Shown: in pieces, positions 8,093 through 29,494 of the stretch
Layout of the letters: the number at the start of each line of letters is the position of its first letter
How positions within the stretch are numbered: the first letter of the stretch is position 1
IMG/VR virus record: IMGVR_UViG_3300017987_000234
Location: 1 to 33,871 of that record
Source of the DNA: a virus
Reading direction: 5' to 3' (one strand)
DNA length: 33,871 nt
Program-made: the position numbers and the translations under genes
The notes under the pieces: generated by a model
What the model was told of the DNA's origin: nothing
Seen by the model: the letters and a program-made list of their open reading frames with translations, nothing else
Databases searched by the model: none

Positions 8093-8580
8093 AGGCGGGC
8101 AACATCATTGGCGGAACTTGCGTAGGCTGCATCGGCCTGCTGGTGCTGGGATTCTGTGCAAGCGTGATGATCGGCCAGAGTGACAGCGGCAAGGCCAGCC
8201 GCAGTACTGCATCGCGGTCAACGGCCAGCAGCCGTACGCAGCGCACGGCTGAAACTCAGCCGCAGCTTGAGGTCTCGGCCCTGGTTCTGTACTCGGCTTA
8301 CGATGCGAACGTGGCGGACTTCGAGTCGCGCTACGGCGACGACCGCACGATCAAGGTGACCGGCACGATCAAGAGCGTGGACGAGTTCGCCGGTGACTTC
8401 ATCGTCCGACTGCGCGGCGAGCAGGGCGAGTATGCCTGGGGCAGCGTCGACTGCTACTTCGATCCGGCACACCAGAGCGCGCTCCGGAAGCTGAGCAAGG
8501 GCAGCTGGGTCGCTATCATCGGCAAATGCGATGCCGGTGTGGGCGGTCCCTTACTTCGGTATTGCAGGCTGGCGCCATGA
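8089..8580 (+). CDS. OB-fold (tRNA_anti-like) membrane protein
   Basis: GTG 8089 overlaps the lipoprotein stop as GTGA. Residues 7-29 form a transmembrane segment, followed by a Ser/Thr/Arg-rich linker (33-58). The C-terminal domain (LYSAYDANVADFESRYG, IKVTGTIKSV, VDCYFDP, WVAIIGKC) matches the tRNA_anti-like OB-fold family found in small membrane or secreted proteins. In this family the fold is thought not to act on tRNA. Probably anchored with the OB domain outside the cytoplasm, together with the lipoprotein encoded before it. Role unknown. Confidence 0.7.
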   Translation: MKAGNIIGGTCVGCIGLLVLGFCASVMIGQSDSGKASRSTASRSTASSRTQRTAETQPQLEVSALVLYSAYDANVADFESRYGDDRTIKVTGTIKSVDEFAGDFIVRLRGEQGEYAWGSVDCYFDPAHQSALRKLSKGSWVAIIGKCDAGVGGPLLRYCRLAP

Positions 8581-8660
8581 CTACCGGGCAGCGACTCCTG
8601 GCGCTGGCCATCCTGACCGCCTGCTGGTGGATTGGCCTGCATCTGGCGGCGGCGCCGTGA
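8577..8660 (+). CDS. Membrane micropeptide (27 aa)
   Basis: ATG 8577 overlaps the previous stop as ATGA, and its own stop overlaps the GTG of the recombinase as GTGA. The 27-residue product is a single hydrophobic helix with two adjacent Trp and a short Thr/Arg start. It may be a true membrane micropeptide or simply a coupling ORF that carries ribosomes to the recombinase start. Confidence 0.45.
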   Translation: MTTGQRLLALAILTACWWIGLHLAAAP

Positions 8661-10426
8661 GACGTCCGCGGGCGATCCTGTATGCAGCGAAGTCGGTAGC
8701 TGACCGCGACGAGCCGCTGGAGTCTCAGCACGAGCGGCTGAGACGCGCAGCCAGTGCGGAGCCCCGGCGCTACCAGATCGTCGCGGAGTACGGCGAGTCC
8801 AATGAGAGCGGTACGACGATGCGCGGGCCGGTGCTGCGCCGGGCCCTGGCGATGATCGAGCGCGGCGAGGCCGAGATCATCATGGCCACGCGCATGGACC
8901 GGCTCGTGCGCAACTGGGACCTCCAGGAGGAGCTGCGGCGCCGCCTGCTGGCCGCGGGCGGCCGCTGGGACCTCACTGATGAGCCTGCGCCGCCAATGGA
9001 CTACGAGCGCCGCCAGGAGCGTCTGAGCGAAGCGCAGCGGGCGCTGTACCGCGAGCTGGAGTCGGCGATGGCCAGCGATCGCATGACGGACGCACTCAGA
9101 GGCAAGTGGCAGTCAGGCCGCTGGATCGGTCCGGCGCCATTCGGGTACCGGCACCAGGGCCGCAGCGGGCTGGTACCGCGAGCCGATGAGCAGGAGGTCT
9201 ACGATCAGTTGGTAGACCTGCTGCTGGCGACCGGCAATGTGGCGCAGACGCTGGACCTGGCACGCGAACACGGGCTTAAGCCCAAGCGGCGGCGCGCGTG
9301 CTGGACACGGAGCAGCCTGGAGGGAATGATGGGTAGCCGCGCCTATCTGGGCCAGGTCTGCCGGACGCTCCGCTGCTACAGCCGCGAGCAGGCTGAAGCC
9401 CTGGTAGCTGAAGATCCCGGCAGCCGTGAGGTCTGCCGCTCGAGCCGTCGCCGTGGCGAGAAGGAGCCGTACAAGCTCTGGGGCTGCAAGGTCTGGCGGG
9501 CGGGGCAGCACGAGCCGCTGATCGAGCCGGAGCGCTGGCAGGCTGTGCAGCGGGTGCTCGCGGCGTGCAGTGGCAGCCGCGGGCGCGGGCGGCGGCGGGG
9601 CGCGCTGGTCTATCCGCTGGCCGGCCACGTGGTCTGCGGCTGCACCACGCTCGACGGCCAGCCCACGCGGTACATCAGCGACTACGTGTCCAGGCGACGG
9701 GCCGATGGCAGCGTGAACAGGATCAGGTACTACGAGCGGGCCGATATCAACAAGCGGCATCACGGCGGGCAGCTGAAGCACACAGGGCCGGAGCCGGGTG
9801 CTCAGCGGGTCAACGCACAGCGGGTCGAGACGTGGGTTGTGGAGCAGCTGAGCCTGATCGCGGGCAGCGACGAGGGCTGGCAGGCGGTAGAAGCATGGAT
9901 CGGCCAGCTGATCATTGACGGCGCGGCAGCCATGGCGGAGATCAGGCGGGATGCGGAGCAGCGGCGGCGGCGGTGCCTGGAGCAGCTGGAGGCTACCCGG
10001 CAGCGGTACCAGCTGATCCTGCTGGGCAGCGATGCGCCGCAGGGCCAGCGGCTGCTGGAGGAGCGGCTGGACAGCCTCGACGCGGAGCTGACCGGCTGCG
10101 AGGAGTGCCTGGCTGATCTGGAGGAGCTGGCGGCGTGGTACCGAGCACTGCCTGCCCACGTCGACGCGGCGCGCGACAAGTACCGGCGGGCGGTCGAGTA
10201 CGGCCACGGCGGGCAGAGCTACCAGCTGCGGGATGTGCTGGAGGATATCCTGCCGGCGGGCGGCGGCGTGACGGTGTATGACCGCGAGGACTGGGAGCTG
10301 CATCTGACGCTCGGATCAGAGCTGGAGCGGCTGGCAACAAGGTTCGGGGAGATCGAGGTTAACTGGGCTTTGCCCAGCATCAGCGCGAACGTAGTTTACC
10401 ACGCTTTGACCCTGCTTGCAGGATAA
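8657..10426 (+). CDS. Large serine recombinase, phage integrase
   Basis: GTG 8657 overlaps the micropeptide stop; the open frame starts earlier but that part lies in other genes. The 589-aa product has the resolvase domain (Ser13 in YAAKS; SGTTMRG near 51; MDRLVRN, Asp81-Arg82-Arg85), the Recombinase domain (GKWQSGRWIGPAPFGYR from about 155), a reduced zinc-ribbon-like segment (VVCGC) and a C-terminal coiled coil (about 440-520). It would integrate and excise the phage. Oddities: the Arg normally two residues before the catalytic Ser (Y-x-R-x-S) is Ala here, and the Cys pairs of the zinc ribbon are incomplete. Still, length and order fit the family well. Confidence 0.85.
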   Translation: MRRPRAILYAAKSVADRDEPLESQHERLRRAASAEPRRYQIVAEYGESNESGTTMRGPVLRRALAMIERGEAEIIMATRMDRLVRNWDLQEELRRRLLAAGGRWDLTDEPAPPMDYERRQERLSEAQRALYRELESAMASDRMTDALRGKWQSGRWIGPAPFGYRHQGRSGLVPRADEQEVYDQLVDLLLATGNVAQTLDLAREHGLKPKRRRACWTRSSLEGMMGSRAYLGQVCRTLRCYSREQAEALVAEDPGSREVCRSSRRRGEKEPYKLWGCKVWRAGQHEPLIEPERWQAVQRVLAACSGSRGRGRRRGALVYPLAGHVVCGCTTLDGQPTRYISDYVSRRRADGSVNRIRYYERADINKRHHGGQLKHTGPEPGAQRVNAQRVETWVVEQLSLIAGSDEGWQAVEAWIGQLIIDGAAAMAEIRRDAEQRRRRCLEQLEATRQRYQLILLGSDAPQGQRLLEERLDSLDAELTGCEECLADLEELAAWYRALPAHVDAARDKYRRAVEYGHGGQSYQLRDVLEDILPAGGGVTVYDREDWELHLTLGSELERLATRFGEIEVNWALPSISANVVYHALTLLAG

Positions 10427-10432
10427 GGAGAG

Positions 10433-10508
10433 TGGAGCGCCAGGGTCGGGTTCGAACCGCCGCCTGCCTACTGGTGTGTAGGCTGTGCTGCCACTACACT
10501 ACTGGCGC
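10433..10508 (-). tRNA. tRNA-like sequence, abnormal anticodon loop
   Basis: On the minus strand 10508-10433 gives an acceptor stem GCGCCAG/CTGGCGC (7 bp perfect), a D arm GTGT/GCAC, an anticodon stem GCCTA/TAGGC, a T loop TTCGAAC with a 4-of-5 stem, discriminator T and encoded CCA. The anticodon loop is 8 nt (CACACCAG) with no T33, and one extra base lies between T stem and acceptor, so the isotype cannot be assigned; the T discriminator is compatible with Gly or Cys. It may be a degenerate tRNA, a phage tRNA with unusual decoding, or a tRNA copy carried at the attachment site beside the integrase. Confidence 0.55.
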
Positions 10509-11238
10509 ATGATCTCGGCTTGCCCTTGTACATGCCGGCACCGGCTTCCTCGATAGCGCTGTATGGTAACTCCGGTACGGTCAGCTTGGCGCGGCAGGCA
10601 GGATCGAGGAAGTAGATATAGCGGAGCTGGAATCCTGGCAATACTCGACCGATGCCCTGCTCCTGCACATAACTGCTCCAATACCGTCCGCCTGGCCTAG
10701 GATAATTGGGATTGTCCGGTGTTTTGGCCGCGACGATCTGTCGTGCTTTCGTTCGGCGCTCAGTGCCGGTACGCAAGCCGATATCAGTAAACACCTCGCC
10801 GTCAAGCTCCATGATGGTGGCGTTGGCACGGATACCAGTCAGCACGAATCCCGCCGCACGATAGATCGTGCCATCGCCGCACTGCGTCCCATCCGCGAAA
10901 CTGACAACCCACTTCAGATGCGGGTAGTGCCGCCTGAGCAGGCGCATGGCAACCGCAATCGCTCTCGATTCACTGTTGCGTGGCAGCCAGTCAGCAAGCG
11001 CCAAGCGGTTCAGCTCCAGGAACTCATTCCACTTGGTATCAGCCACCAGTCCGATGATCTTCCGCTTATCCAGCGACGGCCCAAATTGCAGCGCGCCGCC
11101 GCATTTCCCATCGAGGAAAACGCCTAGGTGAAGCTGGCTGTTCTGTACTACTTTCCCGCTGTAGTGAAGCTGCCTTATGATCCGATTCGCATCCTGGGCG
11201 CTGATCGGCTTGACGCGGATATCCTTAGCCCTGCCCAA
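10468..11238 (-). CDS. mom: Mom-family DNA adenine modification enzyme
   Basis: I choose TTG 11236-11238: GGAGG lies 6 nt upstream and the start overlaps the ParB-domain stop by 14 nt. The 256-aa product matches the Mu Mom family (GNAT fold): HYSGKVVQNSQLHLGVF, GALQFGPSLDKRK, LELNRLA, NSESRAI and SFADGTQCGDGTIYRAAGF occur in order. Mom converts adenine in DNA to N6-(methylcarbamoyl)adenine, protecting phage DNA from many restriction enzymes. The last 13-14 codons and the stop lie inside the tRNA-like sequence, which replaces the C-terminal tail. Late expression fits Mom's known toxicity. Confidence 0.85.
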   Translation of the reverse strand: MGRAKDIRVKPISAQDANRIIRQLHYSGKVVQNSQLHLGVFLDGKCGGALQFGPSLDKRKIIGLVADTKWNEFLELNRLALADWLPRNSESRAIAVAMRLLRRHYPHLKWVVSFADGTQCGDGTIYRAAGFVLTGIRANATIMELDGEVFTDIGLRTGTERRTKARQIVAAKTPDNPNYPRPGGRYWSSYVQEQGIGRVLPGFQLRYIYFLDPACRAKLTVPELPYSAIEEAGAGMYKGKPRSCASSVVAAQPTHQ

Positions 11239-11878
11239 GGTAATCCTCCACGATGCGAGCCAGCGCGTTCCCGTTGCTATTCTCGTTACCGGTGCCGTTG
11301 AATGCACCCGCTGCCTTCGCCTTTGCCAGCGCAGCCTTCACGCACTCGGCCTGGCTATCAGCCAGCGTGAAGGTCATCTGCTGGAACGGCTCGCGGTCGC
11401 CACTGCGCAGCTCAGGCATTTCAGCTTCGCCGACCTCGAACATACCGGCCTGCTCCAGCAGCGCATCGAATCGCAGCTCCGGCACCAGCCCCGGCTGCAC
11501 TGCCTGCACTTCACCAATCAGCGCCTGCACGTCCAGCGTGAACTCGCCCGCAATCGCTGGGTTGTTTAGCGCCAGATTCAGCGCCTTCTCGTCAGTCTCG
11601 TCCAGGTCCACGATCACGACGTCCGCTACATCTACCCCCTCGGCCTGTAGCGCCTTGATCCGCTGGTGGCCGCCTACCACCTGCCCACTGCGCTTGTTCC
11701 AGACGATAGGCTCCACCAGCCCGAACCGCCGGATACTCGCGCGCAGCCCCTTCAGGGCAGCGTCGCTGATCGTGCGTGGATTGTGTGGCGCTGGCTTCAG
11801 CTCCGTCAGCGACATCCGTGTAATCCGGACAGCCTCATCGACGGGATCATCGATGAGGGATTCCGCACTGCTGGACAC
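11225..11878 (-). CDS. ParB N-terminal-domain (ParB/Srx-like) protein
   Basis: I choose GTG 11878 with GAGGTGA 7 nt upstream; upstream in-frame codons read through the leader hairpin. The 217-aa product has the ParB/sulfiredoxin-like domain near residues 20-85: LKPAPHNPRTISD (box I), LRASIRRFGLVEPIVW and GGHQRIKALQAEG (box II). The C-terminal half contains a long helical region and a GNENSNGN stretch. Phage proteins of this type often sit next to DNA-modification genes; here it is translationally coupled to Mom. It could bind DNA, act as a nuclease or regulate its own operon through the palindromes upstream. Confidence 0.8.
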   Translation of the reverse strand: MSSSAESLIDDPVDEAVRITRMSLTELKPAPHNPRTISDAALKGLRASIRRFGLVEPIVWNKRSGQVVGGHQRIKALQAEGVDVADVVIVDLDETDEKALNLALNNPAIAGEFTLDVQALIGEVQAVQPGLVPELRFDALLEQAGMFEVGEAEMPELRSGDREPFQQMTFTLADSQAECVKAALAKAKAAGAFNGTGNENSNGNALARIVEDYLGQG

Positions 11879-11950
11879 GATACGGTCACCTCGTCTACGA
11901 TGTAACCGCTCGTTCCCTTGGTGCTTGACGGTGCTTCCGGAACGAGCCAC

Positions 11951-11971
11951 ACCCCCGCTCTGCGGGGGTTT
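11951..11971 (+). terminator. GC hairpin with short T-run, plus-facing
   Basis: ACCCCCGC and GCGGGGGT (11951-11969) form an 8-bp stem with a TCT loop; on the plus strand TT follows. It could stop plus-strand readthrough from the integrase region before it enters the late genes. On the minus strand it lies in the ParB/mom leader and no T-run follows. Confidence 0.4.
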
Positions 11972-11980
11972 CACTCACAG

Positions 11981-12042: not shown

Positions 12043-12888
12043 CTACGTCACGCTCACTACCGCGCCCGGATACCGGCTCACCGGCCGCAGCCTGCGGTAC
12101 ACGCCGTCGCCGTCAGCGTCCTCGCTGATGTTCCGCGGGTCGGCGCTGGTGTTGCCCTCGATGGTAGTCAGCTCGCCGTCCTCGCCCACCTGCTCAACCA
12201 GGCCCACGTGGTACCAGCCGCTGCCGCCGCCGGCGAACAGGTACACATCGCCCGGCCGCGCCTCAGCCGTGGGCCGCAGCCGCTTGTTCTGCTCGGCCCA
12301 GCGGTGGATCATCGAGCAGCTCAGCTCCGGCACGCCGGGCGCCACCGGGACATCCGGCATGAACAACCCCAGCAGCAGATAGCCGTAGTCAATGAACGCA
12401 TGCTGGGCTGCCGCGCACCAGGGCCACTGCGAATGATCAGGCGCACCAGCATGATCCAGCAGCGCCTCCACCATCGGCCCGCTATTAGGCCCGCCGACCT
12501 CTCTGATCCGCAGCACATCGCAGGCGTACCGCGCCACGTGCACGATCGACTGCCGCAGCTGGTAGCCCAGGCCGTCAGGCTTGTCCGGTACCACGCGCGG
12601 CTTCGGCGGTACCTCGCCCGCCAGAGTCGCCAGTGTCACCGGGCCCGCGATGCCGTCTACCACCAGCCCGCAGTCCTCCTGGTAGTTGCGCGTGATCTCA
12701 TCGAGCGCCAGGCTGAAGGTGCTGAACTCCGGCTCGTCGCCTTCCGGAATCAGCGCCGACTCATACCCGGCGGCTGCCAGACAGCGGCGGTACAGCCGCA
12801 CATGCCAGCCGGGCCGCACACCAACGCGCAGCATCGGCCGCAGCTCGGGGTCGATTCCCCTGAGTGTCGCAATCGGATCAAACGGCAT
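12043..12888 (-). CDS. Endolysin: PG-binding-like N-terminus with CHAP-type amidase/peptidase
   Basis: I choose ATG 12888, with AAGGAGGAG 3-5 nt upstream; an in-frame GTG five codons earlier overlaps the previous stop. The 281-aa protein has an N-terminal peptidoglycan-binding-like part (ITRNYQEDCGLVVDGIAGPVTLATLAG, about 65-91) and a C-terminal CHAP/NlpC-type domain with WPWCAAAQHAF (Cys158), YHVGLVE (His227) and IEGNTS (Glu244/Asn246). It would cut peptide bonds in peptidoglycan at the end of infection. No signal peptide is visible, so export would need the holin. It closes the late operon. Confidence 0.8.
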   Translation of the reverse strand: MPFDPIATLRGIDPELRPMLRVGVRPGWHVRLYRRCLAAAGYESALIPEGDEPEFSTFSLALDEITRNYQEDCGLVVDGIAGPVTLATLAGEVPPKPRVVPDKPDGLGYQLRQSIVHVARYACDVLRIREVGGPNSGPMVEALLDHAGAPDHSQWPWCAAAQHAFIDYGYLLLGLFMPDVPVAPGVPELSCSMIHRWAEQNKRLRPTAEARPGDVYLFAGGGSGWYHVGLVEQVGEDGELTTIEGNTSADPRNISEDADGDGVYRRLRPVSRYPGAVVSVT

Positions 12889-12899
12889 GGTCTCCTCCT

Positions 12900-14492
12900 T
12901 CACTTCACCTTGACCTTCAGGCTCGTAGGCCCGAAGTGTGCGAAGTCGATCCGAGTCCTCAGGGCTCGGATCAGCTTGTTCGCCGCCCGCACTTTGGCGC
13001 CATACGGCTTGAACGGTGGGCCGTCCGGCGCCTTGTCCACGTGCTGCCAGTGCACCTGCCAGTTGTAGCTATCCAGGCCAACCATGTGGATCGCTTTGAC
13101 CTGCGGGTAGCTCGCGGCCAGCTGAATCGCGCGGAACGCGACCCCCGCGCTGCTGCTGAGCAGCCACGGCTCGAATACCGGATCATCGACCGGCGGCAGG
13201 TGCTTGAAGGTGTGGTAGTCGTAGGGATAGCGCCCGGCGTTCGCCGCCAGCAGGTCGCTCAGCAGGTGCATGCGCCCGCGCAGGTGCTCCCAGATCAGCG
13301 GGTACCGCCAGCAGTTGACGTTCATCAGCATCAGCAGGTCCGGATCGACCAGATTGCAGGCGCTGTTGACGGCGATCACGGTGTAGCCCTTCAGGTTGAT
13401 GTCCCTGGCGCGGTGTAGCGACGGGCCGGTACCGCAGATCAGCACGTGGCTGCCGGGATCGAACGCCTGCCGGAAGCTGTCCAGGTCGCCCAGGCACCGC
13501 CCGCGGACTTTGGGCCGCGGGGCTACGGCCTCGCCGGTCCAGTCGCCCAGCATGTACAGCTCATGCTTCAGGAACAGCTCCGGGCCTAGGCCGTAAACCT
13601 GCCCCTGCATTTCGTTGAGACGGCCGCGCAGCCGGTCTTGGTAGTCGCGGCTCACGTACCGCTTGCCGTCCGCCAGCTGGCCGAGCCTGAAGCAGCCGCC
13701 CGGATGCTCGTGCAGTAGCGGTATCCCGGCGTGGTAGACCGGCACGCCGGCCAGCAGCGACTCATACGCGGCAGTGCTGTTGATCGTCGCGCAGGCGTCC
13801 GCCCACTCGATATCGTCAGCGAGCGTGCGGTTCTGCGAGATCAGTACATCCTCGTCGGGCCAGGCAAGGTACGGGTCGGGGTACCACGTCGTGTCGACGG
13901 TGATCTTGTGCTCGGGGACGGCCCGCAGGGACTCCGGGTGCGGGCGGTACCTGATCTCGGCGTCCGGCAACAGATCGCGGACTTCGCTCATCAGCAGGCA
14001 GCTGTTAAAGCCCAGCCCACCATACTGCTGGGCCTGATCCCCGTGGACCTGCCCGATCACGAGTACCCGCTTGATCGGGCTGTCCGCCGGGATCGCGCTG
14101 GCTGCCGGCAGCCTGTCCGGGCTGGTGGCGTGCCTGAGCCAGGTGTCCGATTCGTACATCGCCCAGTCGATCCGCGCGGTCCGGTAGTGCGCAGCCACGC
14201 CGAGCCCGATGTGCCAGTACCTGAGGCCGGCCTGCCGGAACCGGCGCCGGCGCGCATCGCTGTGGGCCATGTACTCATGCGCCATGAACGTATCGATTCC
14301 CGCGTCCTGGCACTCGGCCAGCAGCTGATCGTCATTCTTGCCGCGCTCGTCAAGCTCGTGGACCTCGGCGAAGAATGGGAACAGCTCGGGCCAGCGGCCG
14401 CGGCTGATCTGCTTACCCAGGAACCGCGATACGGCCAGCCGCCGGTCGATCAGCGGGCTGTCGCGATCGGTGCATGTACTGATCAGCTGCAC
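12900..14492 (-). CDS. KpsC/KpsS-like glycosyltransferase fused to Maf/DUF115-like domain
   Basis: GTG 14492 has AGGAGG 4 nt upstream and overlaps the previous gene by 10 nt. Residues about 60-310 match the Capsule_synth family (KpsC/KpsS, retaining Kdo transferases): DTWLRHATSP, VLVIGQVHGDQAQQYGG, RYRPHP (R183, H185, P186) and ADACATINSTAAYESLLAGVPV (S239, E244). Residues about 345-520 form a second domain (ICGTGPSLHRARDI, SSSAGVAFRAI, ANKLIRALR) like Maf/DUF115 glycosyltransferases that add nonulosonic acids to flagellin. The N-terminal part is paralogous to the gene at 32242. Probable target: a virion protein or host surface polymer (inferred). Confidence 0.75.
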   Translation of the reverse strand: MQLISTCTDRDSPLIDRRLAVSRFLGKQISRGRWPELFPFFAEVHELDERGKNDDQLLAECQDAGIDTFMAHEYMAHSDARRRRFRQAGLRYWHIGLGVAAHYRTARIDWAMYESDTWLRHATSPDRLPAASAIPADSPIKRVLVIGQVHGDQAQQYGGLGFNSCLLMSEVRDLLPDAEIRYRPHPESLRAVPEHKITVDTTWYPDPYLAWPDEDVLISQNRTLADDIEWADACATINSTAAYESLLAGVPVYHAGIPLLHEHPGGCFRLGQLADGKRYVSRDYQDRLRGRLNEMQGQVYGLGPELFLKHELYMLGDWTGEAVAPRPKVRGRCLGDLDSFRQAFDPGSHVLICGTGPSLHRARDINLKGYTVIAVNSACNLVDPDLLMLMNVNCWRYPLIWEHLRGRMHLLSDLLAANAGRYPYDYHTFKHLPPVDDPVFEPWLLSSSAGVAFRAIQLAASYPQVKAIHMVGLDSYNWQVHWQHVDKAPDGPPFKPYGAKVRAANKLIRALRTRIDFAHFGPTSLKVKVK

Positions 14493-15172
14493 GCGGCCTC
14501 CTGCCAGCCGGCGATCTCGGCTTCCGGTACGCGCTCCAGCTCGAGCTCGGGATGTACCGGCGACAGCGACCGCACCCGCGTACCCAGCTCGGCGGCGCGG
14601 CGGATCAGCTTATTGGCGTGCTCGCGGCGAGTAGCCCAGCCGTCGCCCTCGCCATGCCACGTGACCGACCCGTCGAAGTGCGCGCGGCCCATCAGCTCGA
14701 AGCCGCAGGTGATGATCTCGCGCGGGCCGTCCGGGAACTGCTCCAGCAGCGCGTGGTGCAGCAGCGCAATTCCTACACCCCCGCTGCTGGCTCCTTCATC
14801 GAGCGTATCTGCGCCATCCGGCAGGGCGTGGCGCTTGATCGAGTGGCCGCGCATCGTGTACGTGGCCCGCTCATTGCGCATCGGGACTTCGCCGTAGGGC
14901 GGCACGCTGGCCGGGTTGCGGCGCATCAGACTCGGTACCCCGCTGTCCAGTCCGACCGGCCACCAGGGCAGGTCCAGCACGTGCGCGGCGGGCGTGGTAC
15001 ATATCCACAGGCTGAACTTCAGCGGCAGCAGGATGGCGCTGTTGATCGCCGCGATGAAGTAGCCAGCCGGGATCTGATCGTAGTGCGGCCGGCCGCAGGG
15101 CCCGCTGGCCACGATGAAGCTGGGGTTGGTGACGCCCAGCTCCCCCAGATGCTCGAAGATGTCACGGCTCAT
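14483..15172 (-). CDS. Maf/DUF115-like protein (229 aa)
   Basis: ATG 15172; only a weak ribosome site is visible and a GC hairpin lies just upstream. The sequence shows SFIVASGPCGRPH (nucleotide-sugar-binding-like GxGPS motif), YFIAAINSA, SSGGVGIALLHHALL, CGFELMGRAHFDG and HANKLIRRAAELG. These blocks align in order with the C-terminal domain of the protein at 12900-14492 (SS-x-x-GV, G-x-D/E, ANKLIR), so the two are paralogues. The family includes Maf-type sialic/pseudaminic acid transferases and MptE-like enzymes. A role in adding or handling an activated sugar is likely but not shown. Confidence 0.65.
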   Translation of the reverse strand: MSRDIFEHLGELGVTNPSFIVASGPCGRPHYDQIPAGYFIAAINSAILLPLKFSLWICTTPAAHVLDLPWWPVGLDSGVPSLMRRNPASVPPYGEVPMRNERATYTMRGHSIKRHALPDGADTLDEGASSGGVGIALLHHALLEQFPDGPREIITCGFELMGRAHFDGSVTWHGEGDGWATRREHANKLIRRAAELGTRVRSLSPVHPELELERVPEAEIAGWQEAACS

Positions 15173-15182
15173 ATGACGGTAT

Positions 15183-15206
15183 CGGGGCCGGCCACCGCCG
15201 ACCCCG
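15183..15206. other. GC hairpin before the Maf-like gene
   Basis: CGGGG-C-CGGC and GCCG-A-CCCCG pair as 9 bp with one internal mismatch and a 4-nt loop. No T-run follows on either strand. It may hide or stabilise the start of the Maf-like mRNA. Confidence 0.3.
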
Positions 15207-15215
15207 TCCTACGAT

Positions 15216-15482
15216 CTACTCCTGGTGCTTCTCAATCGTCAGATTGACGATGTCACCAGCATTCCAGTCACGCTCTGGGAGGTTGAGCTGAATGATGCTG
15301 GTCGTTTGCAGTAGCGCAATGCTGTACTGCACCGTCTGTACGGTCCCAGGCGACGGCTCTCCTTCGCCCACATATCGGGTACGGATCACCGAGCCAGAGA
15401 CCATGACACCGGTACCGGGCCCGCTAAGGTCCGGTCCACCGATGGTGCAACAAGGTGTTTCGCCGACCATATTACCGGTCAT
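15216..15482 (-). CDS. Small hypothetical beta-rich protein (88 aa)
   Basis: ATG 15482 has GGAGG 6 nt upstream. The product begins MTGNMVGETPCCTIGGPDLSG and is rich in Gly, Thr, Val and Ile with alternating pattern, suggesting a small beta-barrel or a DUF2190-like capsid decoration fold; the latter is a guess. Two adjacent Cys are near the start. It lies between tiny membrane genes and the Maf-like gene. No family is firmly recognised. Confidence 0.6.
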   Translation of the reverse strand: MTGNMVGETPCCTIGGPDLSGPGTGVMVSGSVIRTRYVGEGEPSPGTVQTVQYSIALLQTTSIIQLNLPERDWNAGDIVNLTIEKHQE

Positions 15483-15505
15483 AAGAAACCTCCATACTTA
15501 GATGA

Positions 15506-15637
15506 TTATTGAAAGCCAAAACTCACATGCTGGCAAAGCCAGATGATGATGTCGATTAGTTTCCAGATGGCAAGTGGAATCGCGATCAACGCGGCCGCCG
15601 CCATTACGAATACGCCTTCGAACATGCGCCCATCCAT
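15506..15637 (-). CDS. Small membrane protein (43 aa)
   Basis: ATG 15637 overlaps the stop of the preceding micro-gene as TGATG; AGGGGG lies about 9 nt upstream. The 43-aa product has a long hydrophobic stretch (VFVMAAAALIAIPLAIW then IDIIIWL) that could be one long or two short transmembrane segments, with few charges. A longer reading of the same frame (70 aa) would overlap the upstream membrane gene and is less likely. A small holin- or pinholin-like role is possible because lysis genes flank this region. Confidence 0.5.
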   Translation of the reverse strand: MDGRMFEGVFVMAAAALIAIPLAIWKLIDIIIWLCQHVSFGFQ

Positions 15638-15735
15638 CACCAGAGCCCCCCTGTCAATCTCCATGTCACATAGACCCCGCTGAGAAATGCGCCAAGGATG
15701 GCACCAGATATGAACCAATAGACACGTTCGTGCAT
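15637..15735 (-). CDS. Membrane micropeptide (32 aa)
   Basis: ATG 15735 overlaps the methyltransferase stop as TGATG, with GGAG 5 nt upstream. The 32-aa product has a charged start (MHERVYW), one transmembrane helix (ISGAILGAFLSGVYVTW) with small-residue packing and a short tail. Its stop overlaps the next small membrane gene in the same TGATG manner. Such chained tiny membrane genes are common in phage lysis regions; function unknown. Confidence 0.5.
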   Translation of the reverse strand: MHERVYWFISGAILGAFLSGVYVTWRLTGGLW

Positions 15736-16529
15736 CACTGCTCCCCGCCCGGCTTGCGGGCGTATACTTCCATCATGTTGCGCGGCCACGCGAACGGCAG
15801 CCGCCGGATACCCAGCAGCCGCAGCGCAAACCGCCAGGCGTCGCGCAGCGGCCTCGCATACGGCGTCCCCCTGTACGGATAGTGGACCTCCAGCACGTCA
15901 AAGCCGATGTGCTTCAGGCAGTTCGTCAGCTGCGCGTCGCTCAAGACCACGAAGTTCCGCGCCGGGTCCAGCATCGGCATGCTACCCCAGAGCCGGTAGA
16001 CCACGCTGCCCGCGTTCGGGGTAGCCAGCAGCGCAATCAGCCCGCCGGGCTTCAGCCACTCGTAGCAGTTGTGCAGCGTATCCAGCGGGCGGTCGAGGTG
16101 TTGCAGGCTGCCGCGCAGGATGATCAGGTCGAATTGCTCGGGCTTGCCCTCCAGCCAGTGAAACCGGATGCCCTTCTTGTTGGCGATGGCCCGCGCATGC
16201 TCGCTGATCTCGATGCCGTACTTGTGCCAACCTACGAAGTCAGTAATCGCGCCGATACCTACATCATCCACATTGATGTAGCGGCTGACGTCCACGAAGT
16301 ACCAATCCAGGAATCGGCCCAGGCCGCAACCGATATCGAGCACATGCCCAATCACCGCACTGCCATTCTCGGCCTTCAACGCCCGATCCACCGCAGGCTG
16401 CCAGTACGCGTTAAGCCACTTCTCAAGCCGCTGGTGGAACTCCTGCCGCTGCATCTCGTCGCGCGCCGGATCATCAACGTAGGCCGCGAAGTACTGCTCG
16501 TTATAGAGGCTCTGGTAGTCAGCGGCCAC
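15735..16529 (-). CDS. Class I SAM-dependent methyltransferase
   Basis: ATG 16529 overlaps the upstream gene by 11 nt. The 264-aa protein has motif I VLDIGCGLGRFLD (Asp65, Gly67), a second acidic motif GIEISEHA, and LIILRGSLQHLDRP followed by LKPGGLIALLATPN, the UbiG/Methyltransf_23 pattern. Enzymes of this type in surface-polysaccharide loci methylate sugars or cap glycans. Its place between a DUF4910 protein and Maf/KpsC-like genes supports action on a sugar or glycosylated protein. The alternative, protein or small-molecule methylation, cannot be ruled out. Confidence 0.8.
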   Translation of the reverse strand: MAADYQSLYNEQYFAAYVDDPARDEMQRQEFHQRLEKWLNAYWQPAVDRALKAENGSAVIGHVLDIGCGLGRFLDWYFVDVSRYINVDDVGIGAITDFVGWHKYGIEISEHARAIANKKGIRFHWLEGKPEQFDLIILRGSLQHLDRPLDTLHNCYEWLKPGGLIALLATPNAGSVVYRLWGSMPMLDPARNFVVLSDAQLTNCLKHIGFDVLEVHYPYRGTPYARPLRDAWRFALRLLGIRRLPFAWPRNMMEVYARKPGGEQ

Positions 16530-16872
16530 TGGTATCCGCCTCCCCTGATTGCCGCTCCGCTTCCCTCATCTTCGCCAGCAGCTCCTCGTGCTGACGCCAC
16601 TCCGCGTCGATTTCATCACGGCGGACGTTCAGCAGAACTGGCCGATTCAGCGCGGCGCGCAGATCAAGTACATCCGTATCATGCAGTTTCAGCTGGTCCA
16701 ACTGCAGAGCGGGTTGGCCGTCGCCTCCAAGGACTGGACGCACGGATAGCAGCGCTAGATCAATGCTGCCCTCGCGGCTGTTGACCGCCCTGATCCGCAA
16801 TTCAACCAGGTTGCCTGCATCGTCGCGCTGCTCCATAAAAACGACGTCATGTACATCTTTCAGCTTCTTCAT
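16519..16872 (-). CDS. Hypothetical protein (117 aa)
   Basis: ATG 16872, with AGGAGGCGC 5-10 nt upstream just after the DUF4910 stop. The product starts MKKLKDVHDVVFMEQRDDAG, has a beta-rich middle and a charged helical C-terminus (DEIDAEWRQHEELLAKMREAE). No family is recognised. Being coupled to the methyltransferase and DUF4910 genes it may be an accessory of the same system. Confidence 0.55.
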   Translation of the reverse strand: MKKLKDVHDVVFMEQRDDAGNLVELRIRAVNSREGSIDLALLSVRPVLGGDGQPALQLDQLKLHDTDVLDLRAALNRPVLLNVRRDEIDAEWRQHEELLAKMREAERQSGEADTSGR

Positions 16873-16881
16873 CCGCGCCTC

Positions 16882-18132
16882 CTAGCCGATCAACTCCTTC
16901 TCTCGCATGCGGTAGAGCCACGCCAGCAGCTCCGCCGGGTCGATGCCCACCTGATGGGCGATGTCGATTACCGTGTGCTTGCCGTCGAGCAGGTCCAGCA
17001 CCATCTGCATCTGTATCCCGCGCTCGTGGTCGTCGCCTGGGTCGATCCACAGGTCGTGCCTGCTCAGCATGATCGGCCCGCGGCAGCGCGACTGCGGACT
17101 GAAGTTGACGTCGAGCAGCGTCAGAATCCACTCCACGGCGTCCTGCGCTTCGGCGAGCAGGTCGTAGTCCAGCGCATCCGGCGTGTCCATGCTGCTGTGG
17201 TAGCCCCTGAAGGGCAGCTCGCTCGTCTCTCCCCAGCGCGCAGCCCGCGAAATGCTGATCGTCGGTACTCGCACGCCGACGCTATTAAGCACCCGCTCGT
17301 CGTTGCCGATGACCATCCGATACGGCGCGCACTCGCCGATCACCAGTTCCGCGGCCCTGTCCAGCTGCGTATTGCCACCCGGCGTCAGCTGCGCGATCAG
17401 CCGGTTCGAATTGCCCAGCATGTCCAGCGCGATGCCGTACCGCATCCGATGCAGCAGGTGCTCATTGTGGGCCAGGTAGGCAATGCTGCCGATGGTCTCG
17501 GGGCAGAGGATGATCCGGTAGCTGTACTGGTGCACCGCGTTCCGCAGCTTGTCGGCCAGCCCCATCAGGACGGCGATCCCGCTGGCATTGTCATTTGCCT
17601 GGAACGGGTGGCACAGATGGCCGATCAGCACTATCTCGTCGCGCTCCGCGCCGGGCAGGTAGACCTCGCCGACCTTGAGCCGGCCGGGCTCGAAGCGCGA
17701 GTCGATCAGCACGTCGTAGTACTCGTGGCACAGCTCCGGCAGGCGGTTGTGCTGAAGGCAGAAGGCCCAGTCGTCGCGGTAGTACCTGTAGCCGAAGGGG
17801 ACAGCATCCGCTGCATCGGGCCGCGTGATCAGATGCGCCATCAGCTCGCCGTGGCTCACACGCCGGCGGATCGGCTGAGAGTACGACGCGACGTGCAGGC
17901 CGTGCTGGTCAATGTCGATGATCCGGCGGCCGTCCGGCGCCGCCACCCAGGCCGCGTCCACTTCCCAGCGATCGGGGATGATCCAGTTCCAGACCTCGGT
18001 GCCGCTGGGATAGCCGTGAATCTCCAGCTCGGGCAGCAGCCCAGAGAGATAGCCGAGCGCATTGTCGTAGCCCTGGCTAACGAGATCGCGCCGCTCGCGG
18101 CAAAGCCGCTCGACTATCGCTCTGTGATCCAC
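16882..18132 (-). CDS. DUF4910 aminopeptidase-like (M28-type) protein with C-terminal winged helix
   Basis: A 416-aa protein, the usual family length. Metal-ligand-like residues are all present: GHLCHPFQANDNASG (His175, Asp181), PETIGS (Glu212), NDER (Asp278) and YHSSMDTPD (His312), the zinc aminopeptidase pattern. The C-terminus (GKHTVIDIAHQVGID, then LYRMREKELIG) matches the winged-helix tail of DUF4910/DUF2172 proteins. These occur mainly in bacterial polysaccharide and nonulosonic-acid loci; the substrate is not known to me. Start ATG/GTG near 18132 overlaps the previous gene. Finding it in a phage late operon is unusual. Confidence 0.8.
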   Translation of the reverse strand: MDHRAIVERLCRERRDLVSQGYDNALGYLSGLLPELEIHGYPSGTEVWNWIIPDRWEVDAAWVAAPDGRRIIDIDQHGLHVASYSQPIRRRVSHGELMAHLITRPDAADAVPFGYRYYRDDWAFCLQHNRLPELCHEYYDVLIDSRFEPGRLKVGEVYLPGAERDEIVLIGHLCHPFQANDNASGIAVLMGLADKLRNAVHQYSYRIILCPETIGSIAYLAHNEHLLHRMRYGIALDMLGNSNRLIAQLTPGGNTQLDRAAELVIGECAPYRMVIGNDERVLNSVGVRVPTISISRAARWGETSELPFRGYHSSMDTPDALDYDLLAEAQDAVEWILTLLDVNFSPQSRCRGPIMLSRHDLWIDPGDDHERGIQMQMVLDLLDGKHTVIDIAHQVGIDPAELLAWLYRMREKELIG

Positions 18133-18746
18133 TACGCGCTGACTACCTCCGCATCACCGAATACTGGAGCCCGGCAGATATCCCACGGGCTGTATCGCTG
18201 GGGCTCCACGCGCGCCTCGATGAACATCAGCCTGCCGCCGCGGCGGACCAGCAGCTTCCGGCTGCCGTTCCAGGCCAGGGCGTAGCTGAGCGCGGCGCGT
18301 ACCCACTCGGAGCAAAAGTAGCTGCCGGGGCGCCGCCAGCCGATGAAGCAGCGGAGAACCGCGAATACGAGGCCCCAGATGTTGTAGTAGAAGGACTGTG
18401 ATTTGACGGTGATCTCGGTCAGGCGGTCACTGTCCAGCCGGGCCCGCGCGTCGCCGTCCAGTGGCAGATGCACGATCCCATGCGGGTACTCGGCCAACCG
18501 CCGCTCAAGCGGCGTCAGCCGCATCCCGCCCCGCGGCCAGGGCAAGATGCGAAGCAGCAGAAACTCCGCGAGGAACAACCGTCCCATCCACGTAACGACG
18601 ATGCCGACGTGTACTGCCCGCCACGCGCCGTCATTGTCACCACCGTTCGCCTGCTGAAGCAGCATGATGATCAGGTGGCCGATGTTGCACGGATTGCCGC
18701 CAAAGGCCAGCACGTCACCCTCGCGGATGTCAGCAGCGGTCGCCAT
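18132..18746 (-). CDS. YiiX-like permuted NlpC/P60 peptidase-fold protein
   Basis: ATG 18746, close behind the lipoprotein stop. The 204-aa protein begins with IREGDVLAFGG, then HVGIVV (His46), a hydrophobic region and GSYFCSEWV (Cys145). His before Cys is the order of circularly permuted NlpC/P60 proteins (YiiX/YebB, lecithin retinol acyltransferase-like). Such enzymes cut or transfer acyl/peptidyl bonds; some act on peptidoglycan or lipids. In a lysis region a wall or membrane role is plausible. The end overlaps the DUF4910 gene by one base. Confidence 0.7.
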   Translation of the reverse strand: MATAADIREGDVLAFGGNPCNIGHLIIMLLQQANGGDNDGAWRAVHVGIVVTWMGRLFLAEFLLLRILPWPRGGMRLTPLERRLAEYPHGIVHLPLDGDARARLDSDRLTEITVKSQSFYYNIWGLVFAVLRCFIGWRRPGSYFCSEWVRAALSYALAWNGSRKLLVRRGGRLMFIEARVEPQRYSPWDICRAPVFGDAEVVSA

Positions 18747-25875: not shown

Positions 25876-28452
25876 TCAACCGCCGGGCCCGCAACCGCCC
25901 AGCAGACCAAGGTTCTCCAGACCTGACCGGCTGTACGTAGCCAGCGGATTCTGATACTGCGGCTCGTAGGTGTTGATCATCGACAGCATCTCGCTGATGT
26001 CGACGCCCGCAGCCTTCAACGCCTCGAGACCGGCCATCGTGTACTGCCCGCCCTGCATCAGGATTTCGCCGTTGTCGCCGCGCAGGATACCCTCCTCGGT
26101 ATCGAGCCCCGCGGCCGCGGTCTCCCAGCCGGTACCGCCCGCGATCATCGCCTGATTGGCGGCTTCAACCGCGCCCGCAATCGCATCGCTCAGCTGCTGG
26201 CGCAGCGTGGTCGCCACTCCCGCGACCTGCTGTGCGATTCCGGCCAGCGTTGCCGCCACCTGCTGGCCGGCCCGCTGGAATGCATCCGCCATCGCCCAGC
26301 CCATATGCTCGAAGCTGGCGACCGACGTGTCCTCCAGCGTACGAATCTCGTCCAGGATGTTGCCGCTCATCGTGGATACTTCAGACTCGATGTCAGCTGC
26401 ATAGGCAACCGTGACATTGAGCATCTTGCCCCACATGTCCGGCCAGATCGAGTGACCGACTACCACATCCTTCAGCCACGTAAAGACGCCTTGTACCTTC
26501 TCCTTGAACCACGTCACCTTGTCGACAATCTGCTGGCCCCAGCTTGTGGCTGTATCCCTCAGAGCAGTCCACATGTCATTCCACAACTGCGGAATGGTCG
26601 TCTTGGCATTGGTGAAGAACGCCGCAATGGCATCCAGCTTCTCCTGAATCCAGACATCGGCGACGGTATGGAACCAGCTCGTGTCGTAGATCTCTTTACA
26701 GCCCTGCCAGAACGCGTCCCACTCAGCAGCGATAGGTCCCGTGCCACTGCTGAACAGCTGGGCAATCGCATCGAGCGCAGCCTGGATATCCTTGTCGGCA
26801 GTGGTATGGAACCAGCTCTGGTCATAGACGAGTTTCAGCCCCTCCCAGAGCGATGCAAAGTTCGTCTTGAGCCGGGGAGCCGCGTCCTGCATCGCGTACT
26901 CCAATGCAGCCTCGCCCTTCTGGAAGTCGGTAGCCATATCCCAGGCCGTCTCGCCTTCCGGTCCCACCCGCTCTCGCAGCATTCGCTGGAAGTCCTCAGC
27001 GGCTCTTGCCGATGGGTCCCAGTTCTCGATCGCATACTTGATGTTGATGGTCCAGACAGTTGCCGCCAGCGCTGTAAGAGCGGCGAGTAGGCCGAGCGCT
27101 CCCGCGCCACCGGCCGCAGTCCCCGTCGCCTTCGCCAGCCAGACATTGAAGCCCCAACCAGGACCGGCCAGAAACGCGTTGATGCCCGCGGTAAAGCCAA
27201 CCATGCCGCGTGACAGTGCCGCGATTCCGATGCTCATCTGCCCGATGACCATCAGCGCCGGCCCCGCGATGGCCGCTACTGTTGCGAGCCCAGTGGCAAA
27301 CCGCAGGGTTGCGGGGCTGGCCTGCGCTATCTTCCGGAGATAGTCGGTGAGCTTCGTGATGATCCTGGTGAAATCGTCCAGCAGGCCGGACTCGGAGATC
27401 GCCAGCCCCGCGCCCTGCACCGCGGACTTGAACCGCTCCCACGGCGTCATCATCTCCTCGGCGATCTCTTGCGCTTTGCCCGCGGCGTTTAAGTTGGACT
27501 GTGTCAACTCGTTCAGCGCCTCGCTGCCCTGTGAGATCAAGCCGGCAAACCCCGACGCGGCGCGTTGACCAACCAAGGTCTTCAGAGTGGCCATCTGCTG
27601 AGCCTCGCCCATTTCCCCCAAGCCGATTTCCAGTTGGCGAATGATGTCGACCAGAGGCAGCATGGCGCCTTCGGAATCCATTACCTGGAGCTTCAGCTCC
27701 TTCATGATGGCCGCTGCTTTATCTCCCGGATCAATGAGCGACAGGATGCCCATGCGCAATGAAGTACCGGCCTGGCTAGCCTGAATACCGGCGTTACCCA
27801 TCAGACCTACTGCGGCCGCAATTTCCTCGAACTGCATACCGGCACCCGCAGCAACAGGTGCTATGTACTTCATTGTTTCGCCGAGCATCTCCAGATCGAC
27901 ATTCGCACTAGTGAAGGTGTTGGTCAGCACATCCGACACGCGGCCCATGTCCTTTACTTCCAAATTGAAGCCGGTGAGGATATTGCTCGCGATGTCGGCT
28001 GCGCGTGCCAGATCGACCTGTCCCGCGGCAGCCATGGCAAGCGTGCCGGGCATGGCGCCCAGGATTTCGTTCGTCTTGAAGCCGGCCATCGCCAGGAAGC
28101 CCTGCGCTTCCGCGGCCTGATTGGCCGTGAATACCGTCGTCGCGCCGAGGTCCTTTGCCTGCTGCCTCAGCTGTTCAAACTGCTCGCCGGTGGCACCGCT
28201 GAGCGCCTTGACGCGGCGCATCGACTTGTCAAAGTCCAGGCCCAGCTTGATAATCGCTCCGCCGGCAGCCAGGATCGGCACCGTCACGTACCGGCTCATG
28301 CTGGTACCCACGGCCTTCATCGCCCGGCCGGTCTTCTGGAGGTTGCCGGCGAGGCCGCCGATCTGCCTGTTGGTATTGGCCAGACCGCCGCTGAACTTGT
28401 CGTTCAGCTCCAGCACGACCTCCAGAATCTTCTGTTCGGTATCGCTACCCAT
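25876..28452 (-). CDS. Tape measure protein, TP901 family
   Basis: An 858-aa protein; ATG 28452 overlaps the T frame stop as TAATG. Residues 70-320 match the TP901 core: LGATTVFTANQAAEAQGFLAMAGF, SNILTGFNLEV, LMGNAGIQASQAGTSLRMGI and GFAGLISQGSEALNELT. Hydrophobic segments follow (about 385-470), then two tandem 46-residue repeats with SWFHT and LDAIA, and a helical C-terminus. It sets the tail length and probably joins the channel for DNA entry. Length implies a tail of roughly 130 nm by the usual 1.5 A per residue rule (estimate). Confidence 0.9.
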   Translation of the reverse strand: MGSDTEQKILEVVLELNDKFSGGLANTNRQIGGLAGNLQKTGRAMKAVGTSMSRYVTVPILAAGGAIIKLGLDFDKSMRRVKALSGATGEQFEQLRQQAKDLGATTVFTANQAAEAQGFLAMAGFKTNEILGAMPGTLAMAAAGQVDLARAADIASNILTGFNLEVKDMGRVSDVLTNTFTSANVDLEMLGETMKYIAPVAAGAGMQFEEIAAAVGLMGNAGIQASQAGTSLRMGILSLIDPGDKAAAIMKELKLQVMDSEGAMLPLVDIIRQLEIGLGEMGEAQQMATLKTLVGQRAASGFAGLISQGSEALNELTQSNLNAAGKAQEIAEEMMTPWERFKSAVQGAGLAISESGLLDDFTRIITKLTDYLRKIAQASPATLRFATGLATVAAIAGPALMVIGQMSIGIAALSRGMVGFTAGINAFLAGPGWGFNVWLAKATGTAAGGAGALGLLAALTALAATVWTINIKYAIENWDPSARAAEDFQRMLRERVGPEGETAWDMATDFQKGEAALEYAMQDAAPRLKTNFASLWEGLKLVYDQSWFHTTADKDIQAALDAIAQLFSSGTGPIAAEWDAFWQGCKEIYDTSWFHTVADVWIQEKLDAIAAFFTNAKTTIPQLWNDMWTALRDTATSWGQQIVDKVTWFKEKVQGVFTWLKDVVVGHSIWPDMWGKMLNVTVAYAADIESEVSTMSGNILDEIRTLEDTSVASFEHMGWAMADAFQRAGQQVAATLAGIAQQVAGVATTLRQQLSDAIAGAVEAANQAMIAGGTGWETAAAGLDTEEGILRGDNGEILMQGGQYTMAGLEALKAAGVDISEMLSMINTYEPQYQNPLATYSRSGLENLGLLGGCGPGG
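26575..26850 (-). repeat. Tandem 138-bp repeat within tape measure gene
   Basis: Two units, 26850-26713 and 26712-26575, encode related 46-residue segments: W-x-G-x-K-x-x-YD-x-SWFHT-x-AD, then IQ-x-x-LDAIA and a Trp near the end. The similarity is clear in protein, less in DNA. Such internal repeats change tail length by duplication. Confidence 0.6.
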
Positions 28453-28817
28453 TACCGTCTAAGCTTGCTCTCCATGTCACGGCGCGCGGCCTCCTGCTCC
28501 TCGCGCTGATGCTCCTTCACTACTGAATCCGCCAGCCGCATCGCGGCCAGATACCACAGGGGCTGATCAACAAGACCGCCCGCTCGCAGCAGATGACCCG
28601 TGCTGTAGTAGCCGTAAAGCCGCTGCACGCGCACGGCGAACTCGCTGACGTCGCGGAACGGGCAGCCTGTGGCAATGATGTCCTCAATGGCGTCTCCTAC
28701 GCGTCGCTCTCCGATCTTGAGGAGTCCCTGGAGGCAGTGGTGGGGACAGTCTCGCTCATCTTGTCCTTGGCCTGAGCACTCCCTGGGACACTGGAGGCTG
28801 AGGCTGAGCCTGAGGGA
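28452..28817 (-). CDS. Tail assembly chaperone T part, read by -1 frameshift
   Basis: The frame has no own ribosome site and overlaps the G gene by about 170 nt in the -1 frame, the usual G/GT arrangement. If ribosomes slip at TTTTT (28821-28817), 121 T residues are added to the first 226 of G, giving a 347-aa GT protein. The T part has helical segments LLKIGERRVGDAIEDIIAT and LRAGGLVDQPLWYLAAM, ending in a charged helix. GT coats the tape measure during tail assembly. An independent ATG at 28868 exists but lacks a good site. Confidence 0.7.
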   Translation of the reverse strand, partial: SLRLSLSLQCPRECSGQGQDERDCPHHCLQGLLKIGERRVGDAIEDIIATGCPFRDVSEFAVRVQRLYGYYSTGHLLRAGGLVDQPLWYLAAMRLADSVVKEHQREEQEAARRDMESKLRR

Positions 28818-29494
28818 AAAACCACGTCCTCCACCTCCTCCTCGCTCAGGCCGGTTGCATCGCGGCACGCCTGCATGACCTCCAGCAGCAGCAGCTGCGG
28901 CAGCCGGTCGGCGCAGGCAGTGGTAACGACCCGCACCTTCTTGCCGTCGATGGTGACCTTCTGGAAGCTCAGTTCATAGTCCTTGCCGGTCTCCGGATCA
29001 GTCAGGCCCTCAATGTGAGTCAATGCCACGCGCGCCCAGCTACGCGCCGCCGTCCGAACGTTCACGGTGTCGCCGCTGATATTCAGACCCGCCGCGTACT
29101 CCGCATGCCGGTCGTGCAGCTCCCGAATCTTGAACCGAACGCTCGGCTCCCAGTCGAACACGCGGCCCAGCGACTCAAGCTGCTCGAGCTCCAGCAGCGA
29201 CAGCAGATTGATCAGCGCCGTGTGCCAGTTGCGCTTCCGCTCGAAGTCCACGATCGGGTCGTAGCGGAGCGTATGGTAGAACTCCTCCGGGCCGTGCTCG
29301 ATGTCGAGCTTCAGATCGGCCGCGGCCTCCCGCAGCGCTGCATCGACTTCCGGCAGGCTCTCCAGGGCCGCGCAGAAGGTTCCGTAGAATCCGCTGAAGC
29401 TCTGCTTGGCCTGCTCCAGCAGATGCTCAGGCACATCGCATCGTGCGGTAATCCAACCGCCGGTTACTTTGGGGGGTAAAGCCTTGGCTTGCAT
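28697..29494 (-). CDS. Tail assembly chaperone G
   Basis: ATG 29494 has GGAGG 8 nt upstream. The 265-aa product lies between the tail tube and tape measure genes, where gpG-type chaperones are found. It is mostly helical (AALESLPEVDAALREAAADLKL, TALINLLSLLELEQLESLGRVF), and its last 40 residues after the slip site are low-complexity Ser/Ala (SGSASASSVPGSAQ), as expected for a tail that is replaced in the GT form. Confidence 0.75.
   Translation of the reverse strand: MQAKALPPKVTGGWITARCDVPEHLLEQAKQSFSGFYGTFCAALESLPEVDAALREAAADLKLDIEHGPEEFYHTLRYDPIVDFERKRNWHTALINLLSLLELEQLESLGRVFDWEPSVRFKIRELHDRHAEYAAGLNISGDTVNVRTAARSWARVALTHIEGLTDPETGKDYELSFQKVTIDGKKVRVVTTACADRLPQLLLLEVMQACRDATGLSEEEVEDVVFPSGSASASSVPGSAQAKDKMSETVPTTASRDSSRSESDA
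28815..28823 (-). promoter_or_regulatory. Candidate -1 frameshift site
   Basis: On the minus strand GGTTTTTCC, with G-frame codons GTT TTT CCC. A Phe tRNA on TTT can slip back by one and still pair with TTT; the next codon becomes TCC. It is not a full X-XXY-YYZ heptamer. No other slippery stretch is seen in the overlap. Confidence 0.45.

Follow-up and report, generated by a model that had tools for sequence, protein, structure and literature searches.

A phage late gene run encoding KpsC/WbbB-like transferases, DUF115-like domains and a DUF4910 protein: a candidate module for glycosylation with a host-made keto-sugar

In the capsule transferase KpsC, the Asp of a QXXXD motif is the nucleophile that forms a 3-deoxy-D-manno-oct-2-ulosonic acid (Kdo) adduct from cytidine monophosphate (CMP)-Kdo, and an HP motif is common to other CMP-sugar transferases (PMC10148158). 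A bacterial Maf enzyme O-glycosylates flagellin using CMP-Kdo drawn from the own pool of Escherichia coli, and both CMP-Kdo and CMP-N-acetylneuraminic acid (CMP-Neu5Ac) of host origin can serve Maf enzymes as donors (PMC11339370). The DUF4910 protein CA_C2195 is reported to have other residues in place of the catalytic Asp and Glu of M28 enzymes and to retain single-zinc ligands alone; the cellular DUF4910 neighbourhood in part holds pseudaminic acid (Pse)/nonulosonate (NulO) genes, with a DUF115 gene also a neighbour (PMC4000134). Among phages, the transferases of mycobacteriophages are described, in a secondary account, as decorating capsid and tail proteins (Freeman et al. 2023, as cited in PMC12619734). 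Here, we analyzed a group of genes encoding KpsC/WbbB-like transferases, DUF115-like domains, a methyltransferase and a DUF4910 protein in the phage record IMGVR_UViG_3300017987_000234 of IMG/VR, the whole 33,871 nucleotides of which are referred to below as the window.

The group occupies positions 12900-18132 on the minus strand, between an endolysin gene and the lysis and tail genes of the late strand, where the initial annotation had placed it; the open reading frames (ORFs) are as described there and the flanks were assigned via Pfam and PHROG. Several of its neighbouring genes overlap or nearly touch (12900/12903, 14483/14492, 16519/16529 and 18132/18132), which is consistent with co-expression of the set. 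We consider the chances about even that these genes form a late glycosylation module working on a host-made CMP-ulosonate (Kdo or nonulosonate), with virion proteins as the most likely acceptors.

The group is not a chance assembly, since a second, distantly related phage, the 72.5-kb IMG/VR contig 3300031227_000032 (L017), keeps all five proteins. The search of other phages for the same gene neighbourhood, which the initial annotation had proposed, returned these five proteins: a transferase–DUF115 fusion (44% identity), the DUF4910 protein (48%), the methyltransferase (43%) and a free DUF115-like protein (35-38%), plus a free transferase, whose gene overlaps that of the free DUF115-like protein in L017. 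The virion genes shared by the two phages have diverged to a similar degree (terminase 46%, portal 36%, capsid 31%, adaptor 43%, tape measure 54%); judging from these identities, both lineages have probably retained the set from before their separation, with a change of position. In L017, the whole set is situated between the major capsid/capsid-accessory genes and the head–tail adaptor gene, and a transferase gene stands at this capsid/adaptor junction in both phages. The L017 cassette also encloses a DNA methyltransferase gene (15843-16994), which has no counterpart in the window cassette.

Two transferases of the KpsC/WbbB kind are encoded in the window. The first (12900-14492, minus strand, 530 aa) is a fusion protein with a KpsC/WbbB-like part (residues ~1-315, including QVHGD at 148-152 and HP at 185-186) and a DUF115/MptE-like part (residues ~333-530). 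The second (32242-33366, minus strand, 374 aa), overlooked in the initial annotation and outside the coordinates given there, is 44% identical to the N-terminal half of the first with the motifs kept, and is flanked by a capsid-accessory gene (33470-33871, phrog_5707) and the head–tail adaptor gene (31589-32242, phrog_442). A profile of the four phage transferase copies matched KpsC (6mgd) at residues 141-264 of the fusion protein (E 4e-7), a profile of the fusion protein gave E 7e-6 with the same structure, and a Sinorhizobium KpsC-like protein showed up to 37% identity over residues 141-259. A Foldseek search with the model of 12900-14492, a weak one with a mean predicted local distance difference test score (pLDDT) of 53, also ranked KpsC 6mgd best, above 8fux, 6mgb, WbbB 8cse and other GT-B structures. 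Pfam Capsule_synth found neither window copy above its cut-off; the L017 copy at 16975-17958 passed it (28.1 vs. 20 bits). Q148-x-x-x-D152 and H185-P186 are invariant in the four phage copies and align with the bacterial KpsC-like protein. E73 and H94 likewise do not vary among the phage copies and could be the base and acid (cf. Glu66/His94 in the N-terminal module of KpsC), although the alignment to KpsC is unreliable in that part. On these grounds, the two window proteins are KpsC/WbbB-superfamily transferases of putative activity, in agreement with what the initial annotation had claimed for 12900-14492, and their motifs point to a CMP-ulosonate donor, either Kdo or nonulosonate. They resemble the retaining β-Kdo transferases KpsC and WbbB (families GT107 and GT99) in sequence, in the QXXXD and HP motifs and, as far as the weak model shows, in fold (PMC10148158, PMC9587256), but differ from them in being phage-encoded, in having DUF115-like domains as fused or separate partners, in lacking the C-terminal PFYAGWGLT region of KpsC and, for the window copies themselves, in lacking a Capsule_synth match.

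The Maf/DUF115 label given earlier to the C-terminal half of the fusion and to the stand-alone protein of 229 aa (14483-15172, minus strand), a probable second transferase domain, stood in part. MptE-like segments are present: the C-terminal half of the fusion gave a sub-threshold Pfam MptE-like match (E 0.003), and the L017 orthologue of 14483-15172 gave E 8e-7, below the curated cut-off. The stand-alone window protein has no Pfam match of its own and is linked to DUF115 through that orthologue (35-38% identity). Its structure model (pLDDT 48, from a shallow alignment) returned no usable fold match, the DUF115-like profiles found nothing in a sequence search of the PDB, and hhalign of these profiles against the DUF115-type proteins of loci L032 and L031 gave no convincing link. 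PF01973 scores reached 13.7-29.4 bits against a cut-off of 34.6 in three of the four DUF115-like domains of the two phages, so the domains are called only DUF115-like here and we hold the DUF115/Maf assignment, made from sequence, with moderate confidence. What they have in common with the flagellin nonulosonate transferases of the Maf/DUF115 type are the MptE-like motif segments and an expected CMP-ulosonate chemistry; in contrast to Maf, the phage proteins are short, similar only below threshold, devoid of the three-domain Maf architecture and not accompanied by a flagellin.

The DUF4910 protein (16882-18132, minus strand) is an M28-like metalloprotein with DUF4910 (PF16254, E 4e-55, 186.8 bits against a cut-off of 26.6) and DUF2172 (PF09940, E 4e-28, 98 bits, also above its cut-off), and with a weak HTH_47 match below the Pfam cut-off. 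The closest solved structure is 3k9t (E 6e-70). All five metal-ligand positions (H175, D181, E212, D237 and H312) are present, but the positions of the M28 catalytic Glu and of the HxD Asp are taken by Pro211 and Phe177/Met in the phage clade. This clade (support 100/100) unites the window and L017 proteins, a protein from a Solidesulfovibrio nonulosonate locus and, on a long branch, the phage contig G007; its members keep H175, D181, E212, D/E237 and H312 together with Pro211 and a non-acidic residue 177. We take the conserved residues to be the five di-metal ligands of M28 enzymes, with the general base missing. The protein is classed here as a DUF4910 family member but, by its residues, not as an M28 aminopeptidase: the description as aminopeptidase-like in the initial annotation fits the fold and fails for the function. 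As the protein keeps the metal ligands but has neither the catalytic Glu nor the catalytic Asp, sugar tailoring is inferred rather than peptide cleavage, and it is probably a sugar-tailoring enzyme acting on acyl groups. It is similar to CA_C2195-type proteins (3k9t) in the DUF4910+DUF2172 architecture, the M28-like fold and the absence of the catalytic Glu and Asp (PMC4000134); it departs from them in the metal ligands of the phage clade, which are absent from most of the other members compared, and in being encoded in the late operon of a phage, with no sugar-synthesis genes beside it.

The fifth member is a class I S-adenosylmethionine-dependent methyltransferase (15735-16529, minus strand; Methyltransf_23, E 2e-20), as had been claimed, and probably a sugar methylase. 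It overlaps a gene for a 117-aa protein (16519-16872, minus strand) for which no Pfam or PHROG match and no counterpart in L017 were found. Two small ORFs on the same strand complete the run, one (15216-15482) with no Pfam or PHROG family match and one (15506-15718) encoding a single hydrophobic segment.

No gene for making the donor was detected: neither NeuB (PF03102) nor a CMP-sugar synthase (PF02348) was found in the contigs of this phage or in the 72.5-kb relative (G000-G003), and the earlier statement that a CMP-transferase gene is missing stands. With transferase motifs pointing to a CMP-ulosonate and no synthesis genes, the phage would take the donor from its host, a workable arrangement given that Maf draws on the CMP-Kdo of E. 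coli. The interpretation in the initial annotation is partly supported, as regards the protein families and the capsule, Kdo and nonulosonate context proposed for them. Six other DUF4910-bearing viral contigs were collected by motif, and PF02348 was present in five of them and NeuB in three; with no synthesis genes of its own, the set described here is the smallest DUF4910 neighbourhood met in this analysis. On plasmids, DUF4910 neighbours of the nonulosonate kind were seen in Solidesulfovibrio, Tritonibacter and Halorussus.

The other viral contigs differ in content. The T4-like G004 (32,598 b; L026, L055) carries NeuB, cytidylyltransferase, formyltransferase, FkbM methyltransferase, DUF4910 and a weakly DUF115-like gene, and its DUF4910 stretch is shared with the T4-like major head, protease and portal genes. 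G005 (98,979 b; L033, L052, L053) has PseG-, NeuB- and DegT-like genes, a GT2 gene and DUF4910 between terminase and portal, and G006 (98,106 b; L029) combines nonulosonate-pathway genes with DUF4910. G007 (45,931 b; L054) encodes a strong DUF115/MptE protein (540 aa), DUF4910, a formyl/acetyltransferase, a HisF-like protein and an aldo/keto reductase near the terminase, and by eye a PP-loop amidotransferase-like protein; this gene mix is reminiscent of acetamidino-nonulosonate synthesis. DUF4910 is found near head or packaging genes in other phage types as well (the T4-like G004, G005, G007 and G008, the last two near the terminase).

Under the proposed mechanism, the two KpsC/WbbB-type transferases would take a host CMP-activated 2-keto-3-deoxy sugar acid via a covalent Asp intermediate. 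The sugar would be acidic, eight- or nine-carbon and host-made, and as donor the host would provide either a CMP-nonulosonate or the CMP-Kdo that it makes for its lipopolysaccharide. The two DUF115/Maf-like domains, of which one is fused and the other free, may serve as partner transferases or acceptor-binding modules, the DUF4910 protein and the methyltransferase would trim, re-acylate or methylate the sugar, and Ser/Thr residues of virion proteins would be modified during assembly. Such residues are the most likely acceptors, given that all the proteins of the set appear to be cytosolic and share their transcript with the head, tail and lysis genes. Virion proteins are also favoured because one transferase gene in the window, and the whole set in L017, lies between capsid and adaptor genes, and because DUF4910 occurs near head and packaging genes in several other phage types; together, gene place lends moderate support to a virion acceptor. 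The fully specified version, in which KpsC-type transferases O-glycosylate structural proteins directly with a host keto-sugar remodelled by the DUF4910 protein and the methyltransferase, is put forward only tentatively. The likeness to the mycobacteriophage system, so far as it is reported in the secondary account, consists in the transferases being phage-encoded; here, their class is different, the sugar is predicted to be an acidic keto-sugar and the system is known from genes alone.

Several observations weigh against a virion-directed module. Late genes fill much of any phage genome, so that nearness to head genes is weak evidence, and most of the window set adjoins lysis genes instead. 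The known acceptors of KpsC and WbbB are glycolipids or glycans, not proteins, and the Ser/Thr content of the virion proteins revealed no obvious Ser/Thr-rich tail and indicated no acceptor. Both glycan and acceptor are predicted from genes alone, and the DUF115-like domains score below the PF01973 cut-off, as stated above. Moreover, six of the nine plasmid DUF4910 loci were accompanied by cytidine diphosphate (CDP)-hexose/exopolysaccharide genes and not by nonulosonate genes, and in the viral contig G009 DUF4910 is located among DNA-metabolism genes.

Some of these points favor a serious, if rather unlikely, rival explanation, namely that the transferases cap or alter precursors of the host capsule or lipopolysaccharide at the inner membrane late in infection, blocking superinfection or the re-adsorption of progeny to debris. 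KpsC and WbbB work on glycolipid or O-antigen acceptors, the place beside the lysis genes suits host-surface modification as well, and the cellular DUF4910 loci are surface-polysaccharide loci (PMC4000134). The phage looks temperate, with a serine recombinase, which makes lysogenic conversion conceivable, and for Acinetobacter, phage enzymes that change the nonulosonates of the capsule have been described (PMC12053666, PMC6586298). The Acinetobacter genes epaA/epaB (PMC12053666) are comparable as phage genes acting on host-supplied nonulosonate chemistry, but they act on the host capsule, whereas the window genes are late genes encoding transferases. Expression shortly before lysis would leave little time for a surface change, the set showed no membrane glycosyltransferase, flippase or O-acetyltransferase, and the L017 set, placed in full between the capsid and adaptor genes, likewise speaks against such a role.

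It is very improbable that the DUF4910 protein is a true peptidase acting on virion or host proteins, with unrelated enzymes as neighbours: the five M28 metal ligands kept by the phage clade would allow it, but the two catalytic positions are occupied by Pro211 and Phe177/Met, and the gene accompanies the transferases in the two phages and sugar genes in other contexts. An equally small chance is given to a decaying passenger set with no current function; no isolate carries the set and it is rare (two phage species by the patterns used among 2.9 million IMG/VR contigs), yet all frames are open, and the motifs and ~40% identity were kept over a long divergence between genomes of 65% and 52% G+C. 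Hardly any weight is left for DNA hypermodification, with the transferases glycosylating modified phage bases, since, despite the Mom-family (PF25680, E 7e-52) and ParB-like genes that follow the set and the DNA methyltransferase in the L017 cassette, the transferase family is, as far as known, specific for CMP-ulosonates and distinct from the DNA glucosyltransferases, the contexts of DUF4910 and Methyltransf_23 are those of sugar biosynthesis, and that DNA methyltransferase is not common to both phages. A reading as a defence system was discarded; PADLOC gave generic methyltransferase- and ParB-type matches alone.

The phage itself is known from metagenomes alone, and the window is part of its IMG/VR record. 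Two further IMG/VR contigs from different metagenomes (G001 and G002) match the window with 100% nucleotide identity over 23.8-33.9 kb, and joining them to it gave 51.8 kb and added the genes for terminase, portal, protease and capsid upstream. From 33871 to 10468, the minus strand carries a single late run with head genes, tail genes including a tape measure gene, lysis genes, the sugar set and the endolysin, ParB-like and Mom-family genes. The upstream flank of the set is a lysis-region protein of 204 aa (18132-18746) with a 49% orthologue in L017. Downstream follow the endolysin with CHAP (Pfam E 3e-7; PHROG endolysin) and peptidoglycan-binding domains (12043-12903), the ParB-like gene (11225-11974) and, just after it, the Mom-family DNA-modification gene (10468-11307) that ends the run. 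GGAGG-like sequences precede most of the late-gene starts inspected and, together with the endolysin type, therefore argue for a bacterial host. A large serine recombinase gene on the plus strand (8531-10426) suggests a temperate phage, which is regarded here as siphovirus-like. Adjoining this gene is a tRNA-like call with a four-base anticodon (cacc; 10433-10508, minus strand), possibly a remnant of an attachment site. Just upstream of the tape measure gene, overlapping ORFs in different frames (28452-28868 and 28697-29494, minus strand) have the layout of a tail-assembly chaperone frameshift.

The transferases appear to be rare. Peptide patterns recovered them in the two phage species mentioned above; pattern scans miss diverged copies, and the true number may be higher. 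A degenerate motif scan recovered only the known copies, the 11 other loci it picked being chance matches, and an adaptor-based search for further relatives of the phage led to the same two species. Among the 50,697 records of INPHARED, tblastn found no DUF4910, and the one KpsC-like transferase was a distant protein of Rhizobium phage RHph_X2_30 (L024; 11266-14799), a 1177-aa fusion of Capsule_synth and tetratricopeptide repeats (TPR) encoded beside endolysin and tail genes. This TPR-plus-transferase layout recalls the flagellin glycosyltransferase FlmG. Scans of cellular genome contigs with the transferase and DUF4910 alignments yielded no confirmed relatives; the peptide patterns were poor, so these empty scans are not evidence of absence in cells.

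If virion proteins are indeed the acceptors, the set would provide, to our knowledge, the first protein acceptor for the KpsC-type class and the first function for a phage DUF4910 protein. Some tailed phages would then coat their particles with the acidic keto-sugars of bacterial capsules and flagella, drawn from the CMP-Kdo or CMP-nonulosonate pool of the host, and the retaining Kdo-transferase class would have a protein-directed role. The set would likewise give DUF4910, a widespread domain with no assigned reaction, a context in which its function can be tested.

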